Shown here one piece after another: positions 4,687-11,077 of a DNA stretch of 22,035 nt. Within the stretch, counting starts at the first letter, position 1, and each line of letters begins with the position of its first letter. The stretch covers positions 1 through 22,035 of the IMG/VR virus record IMGVR_UViG_3300032291_004266; one strand, written 5' to 3'. Made by a program: the position numbers and the translations under genes. Below the pieces are notes generated by a model. The model made no database searches and was not told the DNA's origin. It saw only the letters and a program-made list of their open reading frames with translations. This DNA is from a virus.

Positions 4687-5167
4687 AGAAATAATTCGTA
4701 AGAAATTAAAAGAAATGAATGCTACCAATGTAGGTGGTGCTACTGCTATTCCTGGTAATAGTATAGGATATACTCCTAAAAAAGCATTTAAAAAAGTAAA
4801 CGAAGGGCCTGGAGCAACTTTAGGAATGGGACCAAGTGCTGGACCTGAAGGTGTAAAAGATAACGCCTATGTAAAACAGTTTAAATATAAACTAGTACCT
4901 AAAAAAATTAAAGGGTCTGGTTTAGAAGTTAAAAAACTTTGGGAGGATGAAACGCTAAACGAAATGAATGACGTTCAAAAAAGACGTATCGCTTCGTTAG
5001 ATGAAATTGAAAAATTGTTGAACGAGATTCAACCATTAGTTTCAAATGCAAAAAATGAAACAATTGAACTATATAGTGGGAACGCTGGTTCATATGATAT
5101 AAATAAACCAATAGAGATAGTAAAAAGCTATTTACAAGAAATAAAACAACTTTTATCAGAAAAATAA
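4673..5167 (+). CDS. Small putative prohead core/structural protein
   Basis: This 164-residue protein opens with a short basic amphipathic helix (KIKEIIRKKLKEM, residues 3-15), followed by a Gly/Pro/Ala-rich flexible stretch (about 20-62) and a basic patch (KYKLVPKKIKGSGLEVKKLW, 71-90). The C-terminal half (95-164) is helical and probably coiled coil. Its start lies inside the end of the preceding gene (14-nt overlap) and its stop overlaps the next start (TAATG), so all three core-region genes are probably translationally coupled. By position it corresponds to the T4 gene 67/68 area. Several L-x-E tripeptides occur near the C-terminus, but they are followed by Met, Ile or Lys rather than a small residue, so cleavage there is doubtful. 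Family not recognised; no enzymatic motif seen. Confidence 0.78.
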   Translation: MDKIKEIIRKKLKEMNATNVGGATAIPGNSIGYTPKKAFKKVNEGPGATLGMGPSAGPEGVKDNAYVKQFKYKLVPKKIKGSGLEVKKLWEDETLNEMNDVQKRRIASLDEIEKLLNEIQPLVSNAKNETIELYSGNAGSYDINKPIEIVKSYLQEIKQLLSEK

Positions 5168-7179
5168 TGAAAAAGACCCTACAAGATCAGTATTTGTTAA
5201 TCAAAGAAGGTAAAGGACATAAAGGTGTTTTCCTTACAGAAGCAAAACGTGAATTCCCTCAATATGTTCGTAACGCTGCTACATTTGATGAAGCAGTAGC
5301 ATCACTTAAAACCAAAAATATCATTTCAGAAAATGTAATTTCGGTGATGCCTGCGATTATGGATCGTCCTAAAAAAGAATCTTATGAAACTGCATTTGAA
5401 GCGTTTTTAGCTGAAGCAAAAAAGAAAAACGAAGACGAAAAAGTTAAAGCAGAAGAGAAAAAAGTTTCTAAACCTGTTGAAGAAGATCTTGAAAAAAACT
5501 TTGACTATTCAGACGAAAAAAATCCTGACAATATGATCTTTGATCAAATTATGATGGGTTACTATGCTGAAATGAAAGATCCTAAAAATGCTGATAAAAC
5601 GATGCAACAATTAAAAGACATCGTATTTAAAAACTTAGCAAAAGATCCAATTTACTATACAAAAGATGGCCAATTTGGAATCAAAGATTTAGGGTATGCA
5701 ACTGAACATCCAGGTTTAGGTACTCCAAAAGAAGCTAAAGGAAAATACAAGTCAAGCGGATATGGTGATTTAAAAGAATCAGTTCAACCAATCAATAAAG
5801 AAGAAGCTACTTTACGTAAAGTAATTCGTGAAATAATTGATGTTGAATTAGAAGAAGCAGGTAGAGGTTTTGCTACTATGGGAACTATTAATCTTAAAGG
5901 TGGTGATGGGAAAATATTTATTCCTCAATACCACATACTTCCTTTAACAGCTATACAATCCCTAGATTTCTCAAATCCTGGGGAAAATGCTCCAACATAT
6001 GGTCAAGAATATTTAATTAAAAATATACGACCATTTAATTTAGGGGGTAAAAGAGAAATTGTAATTTCTAAATGGTTTTATGATGCTATCAATAAAAAAG
6101 AAGATATAAAAAACCCAGTAAAAACAAAAATTAAAGATCTTGTAGATACAAATAAAGAATTTAAAGATTTTTATGGATATATTAAAAACTTTATAGATGA
6201 CAAACCTTTTCTAACAACTATTGATGGAAAAAAAATTCCTTACCACAAAATTAACGTTCAAGTAGAACCTTTAAAACCATGGGCTGAAAAAGAACTTGAA
6301 AAGGCTAATGTTAAACTTCAAAAAGCTAAATCTGGTGTAGTAGGAAGAGGTAGACCTATTAATATTAAATATTTAGAAAATTTTTGGATTCCAACACTTG
6401 AAGAATATCTTTCAAGACCTGAAGGGAATTTAGTAGTTATTCCTCAAATAGAAGAAGGTGTTCTTGGTGTTAGAGATATCGATGTTTCCCCTGGATATCC
6501 TGTAGATCTCCCAATATCATATAGTGATGATAAAAATGTAGCTCATTATTCCGATGATGATAGATATAGTAGTCAAGAAGATCTTTTAGATCCTGAAGAT
6601 TATTTAGAACAAATACAAGGAATGTCTGATGGAGATGCATTTAATTATTTAAAAGGACTTGGATTAGGAAGAGGTGAAATTTTAACTGTTTTAAAATCCC
6701 GTAAATCATCTTTACGTGAAAGCGTAGAAAAAGATTTAATGGACATCAACAAAGAAGCAGAACACGAAGTACTTCAAACTAAATTAGATAAAATTGACGC
6801 ATTAATTGATCTTAGACGTTCTAAACTTGGTAAACTTGACGAAGATGAGGATATGAAAGCCTTAACTGACAAGAAAAAAGTAAAAGAACTTGAAAAAGAC
6901 ATCAAAAAGTTAGAAGTAGCTCGCAACAAAGTTGAAAAAATGATGTCAAAATTTAAAGGCAAAAAATCTTCTAATAAAAAAGTAATTGATGAAACAGAAG
7001 AAGATCTTGATGTAGCTGCTGAATATGTTGAAGATGCTACTGAAAGATTAGATGCTGGTCAAAAAGTAGATTCAATTGTAGACACATATAGTAATCTAGG
7101 AATGGACCAAAAAGAAGACCTAGGTAACTATTTGAATTATGAAGCCCCAGACGATTTAAAATCTGATTACGTATACTAA
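5167..7179 (+). CDS. Large prohead-core-region protein with an apparent inserted domain
   Basis: The 670-residue protein has three parts. Residues 1-230 are highly charged and Lys/Glu-rich, with possible gp21-type cleavage sites LTE25|A, LAE83|A and LKE204|S. They end in an amphipathic helix (LRKVIREIIDVELEEA) containing LEE230|A. Residues 231-518 look different: less charged, with aromatic and Pro/Gly-rich stretches and a likely globular fold (for example YHILPLTAI, REIVISKWFYDAINKKED), then an acidic Asp/Ser/Tyr-rich segment near 450-480. Residues 519-670 return to Lys/Glu-rich helix, including a coiled coil around 565-597. Arginine codons support an insertion: all five in residues 1-230 are CGT, while 231-511 has eight AGA and one CGA. 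Placed directly before the protease, it is probably a core or internal virion protein. The inserted domain is not one I recognise. Confidence 0.75.
   Translation: MKKTLQDQYLLIKEGKGHKGVFLTEAKREFPQYVRNAATFDEAVASLKTKNIISENVISVMPAIMDRPKKESYETAFEAFLAEAKKKNEDEKVKAEEKKVSKPVEEDLEKNFDYSDEKNPDNMIFDQIMMGYYAEMKDPKNADKTMQQLKDIVFKNLAKDPIYYTKDGQFGIKDLGYATEHPGLGTPKEAKGKYKSSGYGDLKESVQPINKEEATLRKVIREIIDVELEEAGRGFATMGTINLKGGDGKIFIPQYHILPLTAIQSLDFSNPGENAPTYGQEYLIKNIRPFNLGGKREIVISKWFYDAINKKEDIKNPVKTKIKDLVDTNKEFKDFYGYIKNFIDDKPFLTTIDGKKIPYHKINVQVEPLKPWAEKELEKANVKLQKAKSGVVGRGRPINIKYLENFWIPTLEEYLSRPEGNLVVIPQIEEGVLGVRDIDVSPGYPVDLPISYSDDKNVAHYSDDDRYSSQEDLLDPEDYLEQIQGMSDGDAFNYLKGLGLGRGEILTVLKSRKSSLRESVEKDLMDINKEAEHEVLQTKLDKIDALIDLRRSKLGKLDEDEDMKALTDKKKVKELEKDIKKLEVARNKVEKMMSKFKGKKSSNKKVIDETEEDLDVAAEYVEDATERLDAGQKVDSIVDTYSNLGMDQKEDLGNYLNYEAPDDLKSDYVY
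5857..6720 (+). other. Candidate inserted cargo domain within the core-region protein
   Basis: This marks residues 231-518 of the 670-aa protein, lying between a gp21-type site LEE|A and a second site LRE|S. Arginine codons switch from CGT (upstream) to AGA and back to CGT at residues 512 and 517. Composition also changes from Lys/Glu-rich helix to a mixed globular type. Internal sites IEE430|G and LEE413|Y could split it further. Boundaries come from motif positions and are approximate; function unknown. Confidence 0.45.
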
Positions 7180-7180
7180 G

Positions 7181-7813
7181 ATGAGTAAAGAACTTTTAAT
7201 AGAAACTAGACATTTCGTCCCTAAACCAGTAAAACTGATTGAAGGAATGAACAAAAATGGAAACGTTTTTGTTGAAGGGATATTAGCTACAGTAGAAGTT
7301 AAGAATGGAAACGGCCGTTACTATAAAAAAGAATTATGGGACCGTGAAATCGACAACTTTATACGCAAAATCCAAATGAAATCTACTGAGACAGTGGGTG
7401 AATTGGACCATCCTGATTCTCAAGTAATCAACTTAAAAAATGCATCACATGCAATTCGTGAAGTATGGTGGAGAGGAGATGAAATTTGGGGAAAAGTTGA
7501 AATATTTTCCGATCCAGGAGAACTAGGAACTACTTCAGGCCGTATTGCAGGAGCATTAGTTAAAAATGGTTTAATTATTGGTATTTCTTCTCGTGGAATG
7601 GGCTCATTAAAGCAAATGGGTGAAGTAATGGAAGTACAAGACGATTTTGAACTGTTAACATGGGATCTTGTATCTAACCCATCTAACCCAGATTCATGGA
7701 TGAAAAATGGTATGTTAAACGAATCTAGAACATCCCAATTAAACGAATATTCACGTACAAATTCAATTATTACCGAAATTTTATGTGCTAAAGGCACATG
7801 CCCTATATTTTAA
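7181..7813 (+). CDS. 21: Prohead core protease (T4 gp21-like serine protease)
   Basis: This protease matures the prohead: it degrades scaffold proteins and trims the capsid protein, normally after (L/I)-x-E. At 210 residues it matches T4 gp21 (212). The expected catalytic elements are present in order: histidine at H77 in GELDHPD, nucleophilic serine at S136 or S137 in GISSRGMG, and aspartate at D162 in TWDLVSNPS. The start ATG follows the previous stop after a single base, so it is co-translated with the core genes. The C-terminus is slightly odd, ending in LCAKGTCPIF with two cysteines, encoded over a 6-bp perfect hairpin (7783-7799). A terminator follows at 7842. The assignment rests on the triad motifs, length and neighbours. 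Confidence 0.93.
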   Translation: MSKELLIETRHFVPKPVKLIEGMNKNGNVFVEGILATVEVKNGNGRYYKKELWDREIDNFIRKIQMKSTETVGELDHPDSQVINLKNASHAIREVWWRGDEIWGKVEIFSDPGELGTTSGRIAGALVKNGLIIGISSRGMGSLKQMGEVMEVQDDFELLTWDLVSNPSNPDSWMKNGMLNESRTSQLNEYSRTNSIITEILCAKGTCPIF

Positions 7814-8023: not shown

Positions 8024-9343
8024 ATGGCAACAAACAGAGATTTGCTTAAAGAAGCAATCGCAGATGCTAAAGCTGTTAAAGAAACTGCTATAGCAAATGC
8101 AAAAGCTGCTCTAGAAGAAGCCTTCACACCTCAATTGAAAGAAATGTTCGCTGCAAAACTTCAAGAAATAGAAGACGATCCAAATCTTGAAGAGATGTAT
8201 GGTATGTCTGAAGATGAAAAAGAGCTTGAAGAAGCAGGATTTGGATCTATGGACCCTATGGGTCATGGAAATATTGAAGATGAGTCTTCATTATATGAAG
8301 ATGACAAGGACACGATGGAAATTGACTTAGAAGAGCTTTTACGTGAGCTAGAAATGGAAGAAGGTGATATGAAAGGCCTTTACGAAGCTGAAGAAGATGA
8401 CGACGATGATACAAACGTATCTGACGAAGATTCTAACAAAGGTGACGAAGAAGGAACTCCAATTGACCTCGAAGACATGACAGATGAAGATCTTAAAACT
8501 ATGATCGAAGACGTCATTAAAGACATGATCGCTGCAGGTGAAATTGAAGCAGGTCATGAAGGTATGAAAGATGAAATGGGTAAAGAAGATGAAGAAGATG
8601 TTGATTTAGCTGAACTTTTAAAAGAAATTGAAGAAATGGAAGACAAGAAAACGTACGAAAAAAAAGAACCAATTGATGAAGCTTGGTTCGTTGATTTTTT
8701 CACACAATTCCCTTCTTTATCTAGTATAAAGGATATTCTTTTTGGAAATGACGGGTTAGCTTCTTTTGGGGTTGGAAAAATGGTTATGGGTACTTTAGGA
8801 GCAGTTGCACTTGGTTTAGTGGCTAATGCTTACCGTAAATATAAAAACGACGGAAAGATTAATGCTATGAAAGATGAACAAGTAATACAATTAGCTAAAA
8901 ACGACAAAGAATTTACTAATTCCCCAGCAGCTAAAGAAGTAATAGCTACTGCAAAAAGTGTATCTAACCAAACAGAAAAAAGATCTGATTCTTCAGTTGA
9001 ACTTGAAGAAGCTTATAAAACAATCAAAACTCTTAAGTCTGAATTAAACGAGATCAACTTGTTAAATGCTAAACTTCTTTACACTAACAAAATCTTCAAA
9101 TCTAAAAATTTGAACGAAAGTCAAAAAGTAAAAGTGTTAAGTTCGTTTGACAAAGCTACTACAGTAGGTGAAGTAAAATTAGTGTTTGAAACTTTAAATG
9201 AGGGAATTAAAGTAAAACCAAACTTAATTAAAGAAAACCTAGGTAGAGCTTCTAAAGGAACAGTTACACCAAACGTTAAAAAACCAATCGTTGAGTCAAA
9301 CGAGGCATTTTTAAGAATGCAAAAATTGGCTGGAATAATTTAA
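8024..9343 (+). CDS. 22: Prohead scaffold (core) protein, T4 gp22-like, with a hydrophobic insert
   Basis: I place the start at 8024 (MATNRDLLKEA), not at an in-frame ATG at 7952, because the upstream 24 codons overlap the leader hairpins, look non-coding, and AGGA precedes 8024. The resulting 439 residues make the major scaffold around which capsid protein assembles; it is normally destroyed by the protease. The Asp/Glu-rich region (about 46-215) and position between gp21 and gp23 fit gp22. The C-terminal helix (LLNAKLLYTNKIFKSKNL, 346-363, and the following SQKVKVLSSFDKA) resembles T4-like scaffolds. T4 gp22 has about 270 residues. Sites of type (L/I)-x-E before Ala or Gly occur at 10, 32, 70, 121, 219, 329 and 393. 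Between 219 and 329 lies an atypical segment with a membrane-like stretch (248-267). The capsid gene follows after 27 nt. Confidence 0.88.
   Translation: MATNRDLLKEAIADAKAVKETAIANAKAALEEAFTPQLKEMFAAKLQEIEDDPNLEEMYGMSEDEKELEEAGFGSMDPMGHGNIEDESSLYEDDKDTMEIDLEELLRELEMEEGDMKGLYEAEEDDDDDTNVSDEDSNKGDEEGTPIDLEDMTDEDLKTMIEDVIKDMIAAGEIEAGHEGMKDEMGKEDEEDVDLAELLKEIEEMEDKKTYEKKEPIDEAWFVDFFTQFPSLSSIKDILFGNDGLASFGVGKMVMGTLGAVALGLVANAYRKYKNDGKINAMKDEQVIQLAKNDKEFTNSPAAKEVIATAKSVSNQTEKRSDSSVELEEAYKTIKTLKSELNEINLLNAKLLYTNKIFKSKNLNESQKVKVLSSFDKATTVGEVKLVFETLNEGIKVKPNLIKENLGRASKGTVTPNVKKPIVESNEAFLRMQKLAGII
8681..9010 (+). other. Candidate inserted segment with membrane-like helix in the scaffold protein
   Basis: This marks scaffold residues 220-329, bounded by IDE219|A and LEE329|A, both ideal gp21-type sites. 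It begins with aromatic residues (AWFVDFFTQF), contains the hydrophobic, Gly-rich run MVMGTLGAVALGLVA (253-267), and then a basic and polar region. Both flanks are acidic scaffold. If cut at both sites it would be a free 110-residue peptide inside the capsid. Boundaries and function are inferred. Confidence 0.45.
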
Positions 9344-9370: not shown

Positions 9371-11077
9371 ATGTCAAGTATTAATTCTTTATTAGAAAGC
9401 TCGGCTTCTGGATGGAAAAACATGCAGAACGATGCTGCTCGTATGGCTTCTAAGTGGGCTAAAACGGGATTATTAGAAGGATTGAATAGCGAAGTTGAGA
9501 AAAACAACATGGCTTTAATCCTCGAAAACCAAGCAAAACAACTTGTTGTTGAGCAATCTTCTACAAATATAGGTGGTGGTTCATTTAGCGTAGGACAAGG
9601 TGAGCAATGGGCAGGAGTAGCTCTTCCATTGGTACGTAAAGTATTCGGTTCTTTATCATCTAAAGAATTCGTTTCTGTACAACCAATGAATTTGCCTTCT
9701 GGTCTTGTATTCTTCTTAGATTTCCAATATGGTGCAAATTCTAAAGCTGCTCCAACAGGCCCATTTGGTCCTAGTGGTGACACTTATGGTGCTACTTCAT
9801 CTATGTACGGTAATACAAACCCAGGTGTAGCAAATGATGCATCTCAAGGTCTATACGGTGCTGGTAGATTTGCTTATTCAGTTAACCAATTCTCAGCATC
9901 TGTAACTTCATCTACTTCACCAGCAGCATGGTCTGATGTTGATTATGATTCAACTCTATCTGCTTCTATTTCTTCTGGTTTTATCCAAAAAGTAGTTGTT
10001 ACTGGTATAGGTGCTAATACTAATGTTCCACGCCCTGACTTTAAAGGTGTTCGTGCATTTGTTCCTGCTTCAGGTGCTGCTGCTACTCCTGCATCTCAAA
10101 TCTACACTAACTTGTTACCACAGTATACAACTACTAATGGTTCTAATACTATTACATTTATTGTATCAGGTTCAGGTGCTTTAACTGGAATCCCTACAGG
10201 ATCTAATACAATCAATACATTATTTTATAATGTTCAACCAGCTGATAATTACAGAGGTGATTTTGAAGATAATAATGGTGCTGGTTATCCAAATGCTGAA
10301 TCTACAGCTGCTGATTCATTAGCTATTCCACAAATCAATATCCAAATGAAATCTGAGGCTATTGTTGCTAAAACTCGTAAGTTGAAAGCACAATGGACAC
10401 CAGAATTTGCTCAAGATTTAAATGCATACCAATCTTTAGATGCTGAAGCTGAATTAACTTCAATCATGAGCGAATATATTGCATTAGAAATTGATCTTGA
10501 AGTATTAGACATGTTGATCCAAGATGCTTCTGCATGGGATGAATATTGGTATGCTACTAACAACCGTGTATTGAATTCTAGCAAAACAGGATATGATAAT
10601 CCTCAGTTTTACAACACACAAGGTCAGTGGTTCCAAACTTTAGGAACTAAAATGCAAAAAGTTAGTAACAAAATTCACCAAAAGACTTTACGTGGTGGTG
10701 CAAACTTCATCGTAACTTCTCCAACTGTAGCAACCATCCTTGAATCAATCCCAGGATTTGCTTCATCTTCTGATGGTGATGTAACAAAAGCTAGCTATGC
10801 ATTTGGTATCCAAAAAGCTGGTCAAATGAACAACCGTTACACAGTTTACAAAAACCCTTACATGACTGAAAACTTAATGTTGATGGGTTATAGAGGATCT
10901 CAATTCCTTGAAACTGGTGCGGTATTTGCTCCATATGTACCTCTAATCATGACTCCATTAGTATACGACCCAGAAACATTTACCCCACGTAAAGGTTTAT
11001 TGACTCGTTATGCTAAGAAAATGATCCGTCCTGAATTCTTCGGTCGTATCTTTATCAACGATTTGAATGTACTTTAA
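9371..11077 (+). CDS. 23: Major capsid protein (T4 gp23-like)
   Basis: The main shell protein, HK97-like fold by family. The region around residues 85-120 (LPLVRKVFGSLSSKEFVSVQ, followed by PMNLPSGLVFFLDFQY) matches the gp23 pattern in T4 (MVRRTMPALVAFDLVGVQPMSGPTGQVF). The C-terminus (LLTRYAKKMIRPEFFGRIF) is also of this type. It has 568 residues against 521 in T4; the extra length is mainly a Ser/Thr/Ala/Gly-rich insertion between about 125 and 300, where T4-like capsids vary. Like T4 gp23 it should lose an N-terminal delta region to the protease: candidates are LLE36|G and ILE52|N. The start is preceded by AAACAAAAACAAAACA without a Shine-Dalgarno. A strong terminator follows 26 nt after the stop, so transcription is probably shared with the scaffold gene. 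Confidence 0.95.
   Translation: MSSINSLLESSASGWKNMQNDAARMASKWAKTGLLEGLNSEVEKNNMALILENQAKQLVVEQSSTNIGGGSFSVGQGEQWAGVALPLVRKVFGSLSSKEFVSVQPMNLPSGLVFFLDFQYGANSKAAPTGPFGPSGDTYGATSSMYGNTNPGVANDASQGLYGAGRFAYSVNQFSASVTSSTSPAAWSDVDYDSTLSASISSGFIQKVVVTGIGANTNVPRPDFKGVRAFVPASGAAATPASQIYTNLLPQYTTTNGSNTITFIVSGSGALTGIPTGSNTINTLFYNVQPADNYRGDFEDNNGAGYPNAESTAADSLAIPQINIQMKSEAIVAKTRKLKAQWTPEFAQDLNAYQSLDAEAELTSIMSEYIALEIDLEVLDMLIQDASAWDEYWYATNNRVLNSSKTGYDNPQFYNTQGQWFQTLGTKMQKVSNKIHQKTLRGGANFIVTSPTVATILESIPGFASSSDGDVTKASYAFGIQKAGQMNNRYTVYKNPYMTENLMLMGYRGSQFLETGAVFAPYVPLIMTPLVYDPETFTPRKGLLTRYAKKMIRPEFFGRIFINDLNVL

Follow-up and report, generated by a model that had tools for sequence, protein, structure and literature searches.

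Head gene cluster of the window

The window, by which we mean the whole stretch of 22,035 nucleotides analyzed here (positions 1 to 22,035 of the IMG/VR record IMGVR_UViG_3300032291_004266), carries a head gene cluster in the order gp20 portal, core proteins, S77 protease, scaffold and gp23 major capsid protein (MCP), which matches the T4 order 20-67-68-21-22-23. The features of this cluster located below lie on the plus strand. The ORF in the gene-22 position (8024..9343, ATG at 8024) was assigned to a scaffold/core protein of 439 amino acids on the basis of synteny and of its relatives, and a second core protein of 670 amino acids is encoded in the gene-68 position (5167..7179). The gene between them encodes a gp21-like prohead core serine protease of the Peptidase_S77 type (7181..7813; Pfam PF03420, E=3e-28; PHROG 207, E=2e-50), which is presumed to be the enzyme that cuts the scaffold. 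The MCP gene (gp23; Pfam PF07068) follows at 9371..11077; when relatives were compared by eye, ILENQAK and [LI]VxE|[QASTN] were conserved near the N-terminus of its product, and ILE|N and [LI]VxE| are candidate maturation sites.

This scaffold family belongs to T4-like phages that have come to light mainly through metagenomes. Among cultured phages, the nearest relatives found are the Flavobacterium phages 'immuto', so the host may be a member of the Bacteroidota. The scaffold of the cultured immuto phages (L081:7998-9239) bears the annotation 'DNA polymerase phi-like protein', for which its acidic composition is the probable reason, and the head-core gene cluster of Microcystis phage Mel-JY01 includes a gene (L082:5582-5809) whose annotation is ribosomal protein S21 (RpsU). 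Elsewhere in the window, between 12765 and 16008, two nearby ORFs share similar N-termini (MSTLKVNNIEPTSGN and MSTLRVNNLEPVSGN), have Ser/Thr/Gly-rich bodies (ITGS..) and resemble paralogous fibre-type proteins.

Layout of the scaffold protein

The scaffold consists of a conserved N-terminus (residues 1-49), an acidic tract (50-219) with 72 D/E in 170 residues, a segment that we call the cassette (220-329; 8681..9010) and a conserved C-terminus (330-439). Repeats of a unit of the type ARTDAEEEGYKDGMKDAKAD occur in the acidic tract of five related scaffolds (L049, L053, L063, L068 and L069). A previous sequence-only reading had singled out residues 220-329 as a membrane-like peptide cuttable at both ends. 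Its coordinates were right, since with the ATG at 8024 residue 220 begins at 8681 and residue 329 finishes at 9010, and the aromatic start AWFVDFF, a charge-free hydrophobic run at 253-267 and the basic follow-up YRKYK are all present. The cassette is flanked by IDE219|A220 and LEE329|A330 and has no [LIVM]xE inside.

A variable slot between conserved scaffold ends

Viral contigs were scanned with the window scaffold and those of two cultured relatives as queries, which gave 79, 80 and 10 loci, and 171 related scaffold ORFs were extracted, the two cultured loci included. Conservation among the relatives covers the N-terminal 49 residues and the C-terminal ~110, whereas the cassette, which follows the acidic tract and precedes the C-terminal domain, varies. 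The sequence-only reading would have failed if the segment belonged to a scaffold fold shared by all homologues; in the 171 scaffolds it falls outside any conserved fold, and the slot holds many unrelated modules. These are hydrophobic, soluble, Lys-rich or absent, and sometimes two or three copies stand in series. The window type, a helix followed by YRKYK..MKD, is found in the window, L001, L002, L004 and L173 and, more distantly, in L003. Other hydrophobic modules occupy the slot in L011, L015, L059, L077, L101 and L145; soluble modules include those of the types LFGLGNKE.., LFGIKPGAV.. and GFIDSIKKG.., Lys-rich ones the type KKYGGNKGD.., and L067 and L074 have no insert. Automatic clustering of low-acid segments produced 35 groups, which include fragments of the backbone and groups that lump types together, so the figure of more than 20 cassette types is a reading by eye.

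Closely related phages differ in what they carry. Among 179 locus pairs with MCP identity of at least 80%, a set that includes some near-duplicate contigs, 74 show no similarity between their cassettes even though the insert zone exceeds 40 amino acids in both members. The MCPs of the window and L011 are 91% identical and their scaffolds are 96, 89, 24 and 95% identical in residues 1-49, 146-219, 220-329 and 330-439, respectively. BLASTn aligns the DNA of these two loci up to base 8680, with which the predicted P1 codon ends, and again from 8997, which lies 14 bases upstream of the second predicted cut. In 391 comparisons of pairs, not independent of one another, the breaks clustered near the two sites, with medians of 15 nucleotides before the N-side site and 23 nucleotides before the C-side site, offsets that are rough because the N-side site was set by rule. 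The window and L001 have related cassettes, but dS is 0.65 in the cassette and 0.09-0.10 in the flanks, which points to recombination in the conserved flanks that replaced one cassette with a distant homologue. Conversely, related cassettes occur on diverged backbones (the C-terminal domains are 58% identical in L077/L145 and 65% in L017/L135). The existence of the slot and the swapping of its contents are near certain.

Putative protease sites at the cassette borders

T4 gp21 cuts after L/I-X-E (PMC9026906); this was the motif searched for, and we infer a like specificity for the protease of the window lineage. The predicted N-side site is IDE219 (8672..8680), whose last base is where DNA homology to L011 ends, and the predicted C-side site is LEE329|A (9002..9010). 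The window scaffold has 20 [LI]xE sites, none of them strictly between 219 and 329. This is the longest site-free stretch of the protein, but 20 random sites leave a gap of at least 110 with P=0.06, so the lone gap is weak evidence. The comparison among relatives was more informative. In 27 cassettes, their borders drawn manually around the motif, [LI]xE accounts for 2 of the 138 Glu residues in the interior; in the acidic tracts it accounts for 199 of 1424 (P=9e-7, ancestry ignored). LxE|A is present at the C-side place in 86 of 98 non-redundant scaffolds; since it is also present in scaffolds without insert, it may be a coiled-coil feature. For the N-side, an automatic boundary rule found [ILVM]xE in 37 of 58 scaffolds versus a baseline of 21%, again with ancestry ignored. 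The proposal that the segment can be cut at both ends thus gained support, as the predicted sites are conserved in position and homology breaks at or near them. Judged from sequence, it is the comparative evidence, rather than the lone gap or the hydrophobicity considered next, that lifts the segment above chance.

Hydrophobicity, fold and selection

AlphaFold2 was run on five homologous cassettes. In the window's cassette it predicts a long helix at residues 251-274, the membrane-like part (8774..8845; KD19 1.67), in a low-confidence model with a mean pLDDT of 61, in which most of this helix scores ~74-81 and its first residues below 50. The helix expected from the sequence-only reading was recovered, but its hydrophobicity is marginal: the maximum KD19 of the cassette, 1.67, was equalled or exceeded by 508 of 10,000 shuffles of the cassette, which makes hydrophobicity alone weak evidence and leaves the membrane helix barely above chance for this composition. 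As a general feature of the slot the membrane-like character did not hold, since the variable zone reaches KD19>=1.6 in only 17 of 98 non-redundant scaffolds. With the other occupants soluble, Lys-rich or absent, activity on membranes would characterize just one of several kinds of cargo; the hydrophobic cassettes may have the membrane of the host as their target, the window's own being a borderline case. The idea that cassettes are strongly basic like T4 internal proteins was rejected (13 K+R versus 14 D+E in the window cassette). Foldseek gave no match at E 0.001 for the window cassette model, whose mean confidence is 61, and phmmer gave none for the whole scaffold against PDB sequences.

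Most cassettes are proteins under purifying selection and not spacers, because dN/dS is 0.11-0.47 in 14 of 15 pairs; the window/L001 pair gives 0.67. They also seem confined to scaffolds. In all 18 loci recovered with two hydrophobic cassette queries the cassette lies inside the scaffold ORF, no cassette homologue was found in non-scaffold ORFs of the loci, and the window cassette and one other hydrophobic cassette had no homologue outside scaffolds in phage records. Searches of Pfam, PHROGs, NCBIfam and PADLOC assigned the tested cassettes to no known effector family, and weak matches were taken as chance, among them an 'Rz-like spanin' match to a cassette (E 0.009). Weak matches that one soluble unit gave to tape measure proteins (E 0.5) were treated in the same way.

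Serial cassettes and a second mosaic core protein

Flavobacterium phage immuto has two tandem cassettes of 62 amino acids whose DNA is 97% identical over 51 codons, with the borders VNE|G, LEE|G and LAE|A, so that each copy is bounded by xxE|. Three copies are present in L093 and L136 and two different modules in L138 and L157, and the borders of serial copies carry the protease motifs. A BLAST-based repeat count over the zones returned nothing; the local-alignment count used instead found repeats in 12 of 73 zones and misses some that are visible by eye.

The second core protein shares the architecture of the scaffold. This mosaic carrier has a conserved N-terminal part, a conserved coiled-coil-like C-terminal part and, between these ends, exchangeable modules whose number, set and order differ among relatives (e.g. 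L013, L024, L006 and L018). Module D1 (residues 231-430; 5857..6456) is bounded by LEE230|A and IEE430|G. Its AlphaFold2 model has a pLDDT of 77.6 and no convincing fold match, the best VIA-align Z being 5.3 on a 69-residue part and most of the matches being to short helical parts. In L031 the core ORF upstream of the scaffold shows a partial duplication in which GDLNESIQHINEEESKLRKVIREIISEELDEMIKINPI occurs twice, at the start of module D1.

Possible roles of the cassettes

The explanation that we favor, and consider somewhat probable from these comparisons, is that the core proteins carry exchangeable cargo which is excised by the prohead protease and kept in the capsid. The scaffold would be a carrier whose conserved ends form the prohead core, and between these ends would sit an exchangeable cassette, flanked by an [LI]xE site at either end and nearly or wholly free of such sites in its interior. 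Once the prohead has assembled, the gp21-like protease would digest the site-rich acidic tract and cut the cassette out whole; having no sites, the cassette would stay in the head. It would then be ejected with the DNA, different cassettes acting on different host targets and hydrophobic ones at the inner membrane. We infer cutting, retention, ejection and effector function with unequal confidence: excision of the cassette is probable, and for injection we put the chances at about even. The broader proposal that the core proteins of a widespread T4-like lineage form a multi-slot rack of exchangeable effectors, freed by the protease at both ends and injected, could equally well be right or wrong. 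The observed pattern of diverse cassettes, free of sites inside and with sites at their edges, fits cargo better than scaffold. Some points count against cargo: Glu-rich tracts hold LxE motifs by composition, the C-side LxE|A is also present where there is no insert, several of the statistics share ancestry between loci, the borders of the 27 cassettes were set by hand, dN/dS is 0.67 for the window/L001 pair, and no known effector family was matched by the tested cassettes and no known fold by the window's.

Three other explanations were weighed. It is rather unlikely, though the best placed of the three, that the cassette is a lineage-specific and fast-diverging structural part of the core, concerned with size or shape control or with contact to the portal or shell, which cutting clears away. 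The location of the cassette in the scaffold and in no other ORF agrees with such a part, as does the report that T4 IPIII itself affects head assembly (PMC9026906), but unrelated cassettes accompany closely similar capsid proteins, serial copies and mixed types occur, and the depletion of interior sites would be purposeless in a part that is to be cleared. We think it improbable that the hydrophobic cassettes serve to tether the core, during its assembly, to the inner membrane, the site of prohead construction in T4-like phages: T4 proheads do assemble on the membrane (PMC9958956) and 17 of the 98 scaffolds have a membrane-like stretch, yet most relatives lack one, the shell encloses the core and the window helix is only marginally hydrophobic. 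Equally improbable is a neutral, tolerant insertion site collecting functionless sequence in a disposable scaffold, where inserts may be tolerated because scaffolds are degraded, for although L067 and L074 have no cassette and the window/L001 pair has a dN/dS of 0.67, most pairs are under purifying selection, motifs such as YRKYK and MKD are conserved and the breakpoints lie at or near protease sites.

If the slot is a cargo site, metagenomic scaffold alignments would list candidate injected effectors, with their borders, at scale; injected phage proteins and their route into the head are known for few phages. The more than 20 types distinguished by eye, without known family and several of them hydrophobic, are already visible. 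The arrangement would also be a natural example of protein loading into a phage head by in-frame placement inside the scaffold, and a single structural gene would supply a rapidly changing repertoire of anti-host proteins that need no targeting peptides.

Comparison with known head proteins

T4 gp22 resembles the window scaffold in lying between the protease and the capsid protein, in being an acidic core protein and in being an expected substrate of a gp21-type protease; the T4 scaffold is degraded by gp21 (PMC9958956). However, gp22 has 269 amino acids, and of the 1962 phage records that match it, 1365 span 80% or more of its length in one place. An hhalign comparison with gp22 aligned only 32 columns in the C-terminal part (E 0.0095, probability 4%), and the window protein has no PHROG or Pfam scaffold match whereas T4 gp22 matches phrog_237.

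The known kinds of head cargo are internal proteins, polyvalent proteins and ejection proteins. In the available text of the open-licence literature we found no description of cargo built into a scaffold between protease sites, which is weak evidence of novelty, and that literature yielded no virion proteome of a relative. The polyvalent proteins of phages and conjugative elements are multi-domain, mix-and-match proteins predicted to be packaged in heads, some with built-in peptidases (PMC5512222). They are dedicated effectors, whereas in the present case the structural core serves as the carrier and the prohead protease is presumed to act as the peptidase; no domain common to both was found, and no effector domain was recognized in Pfam, PHROGs, NCBIfam or PADLOC. 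The Dar proteins of P1 and the ejection proteins of SPN3US are head-internal, and some of them undergo both processing by the prohead protease and ejection (PMC12810830, PMC10052503), but they are products of free-standing genes with terminal propeptides and not scaffold cassettes.

The T4 internal proteins may be the closest functional analogue of the cassettes. IPI, IPII and IPIII are small, variable, loaded by way of the prohead core, trimmed by gp21 at L/I-X-E, retained and injected (PMC12373910, PMC9026906). Once trimmed, kept in the head and injected, such proteins block restriction enzymes (PMC12373910), and each of Ip1-3 blocks a different GmrSD enzyme (PMC12373910, PMC9026906). The cassette shares with them the high diversity between close relatives and the pattern of a motif at the border(s) with none inside, but it is part of the scaffold ORF and not a separate gene. 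This difference speaks against cargo, as T4 cargo is not fused inside gp22: its internal proteins are encoded separately and each has its own N-terminal capsid-targeting peptide of ~10 amino acids, whereas the cassette is embedded in the scaffold chain, from which two cuts would be required to release it.
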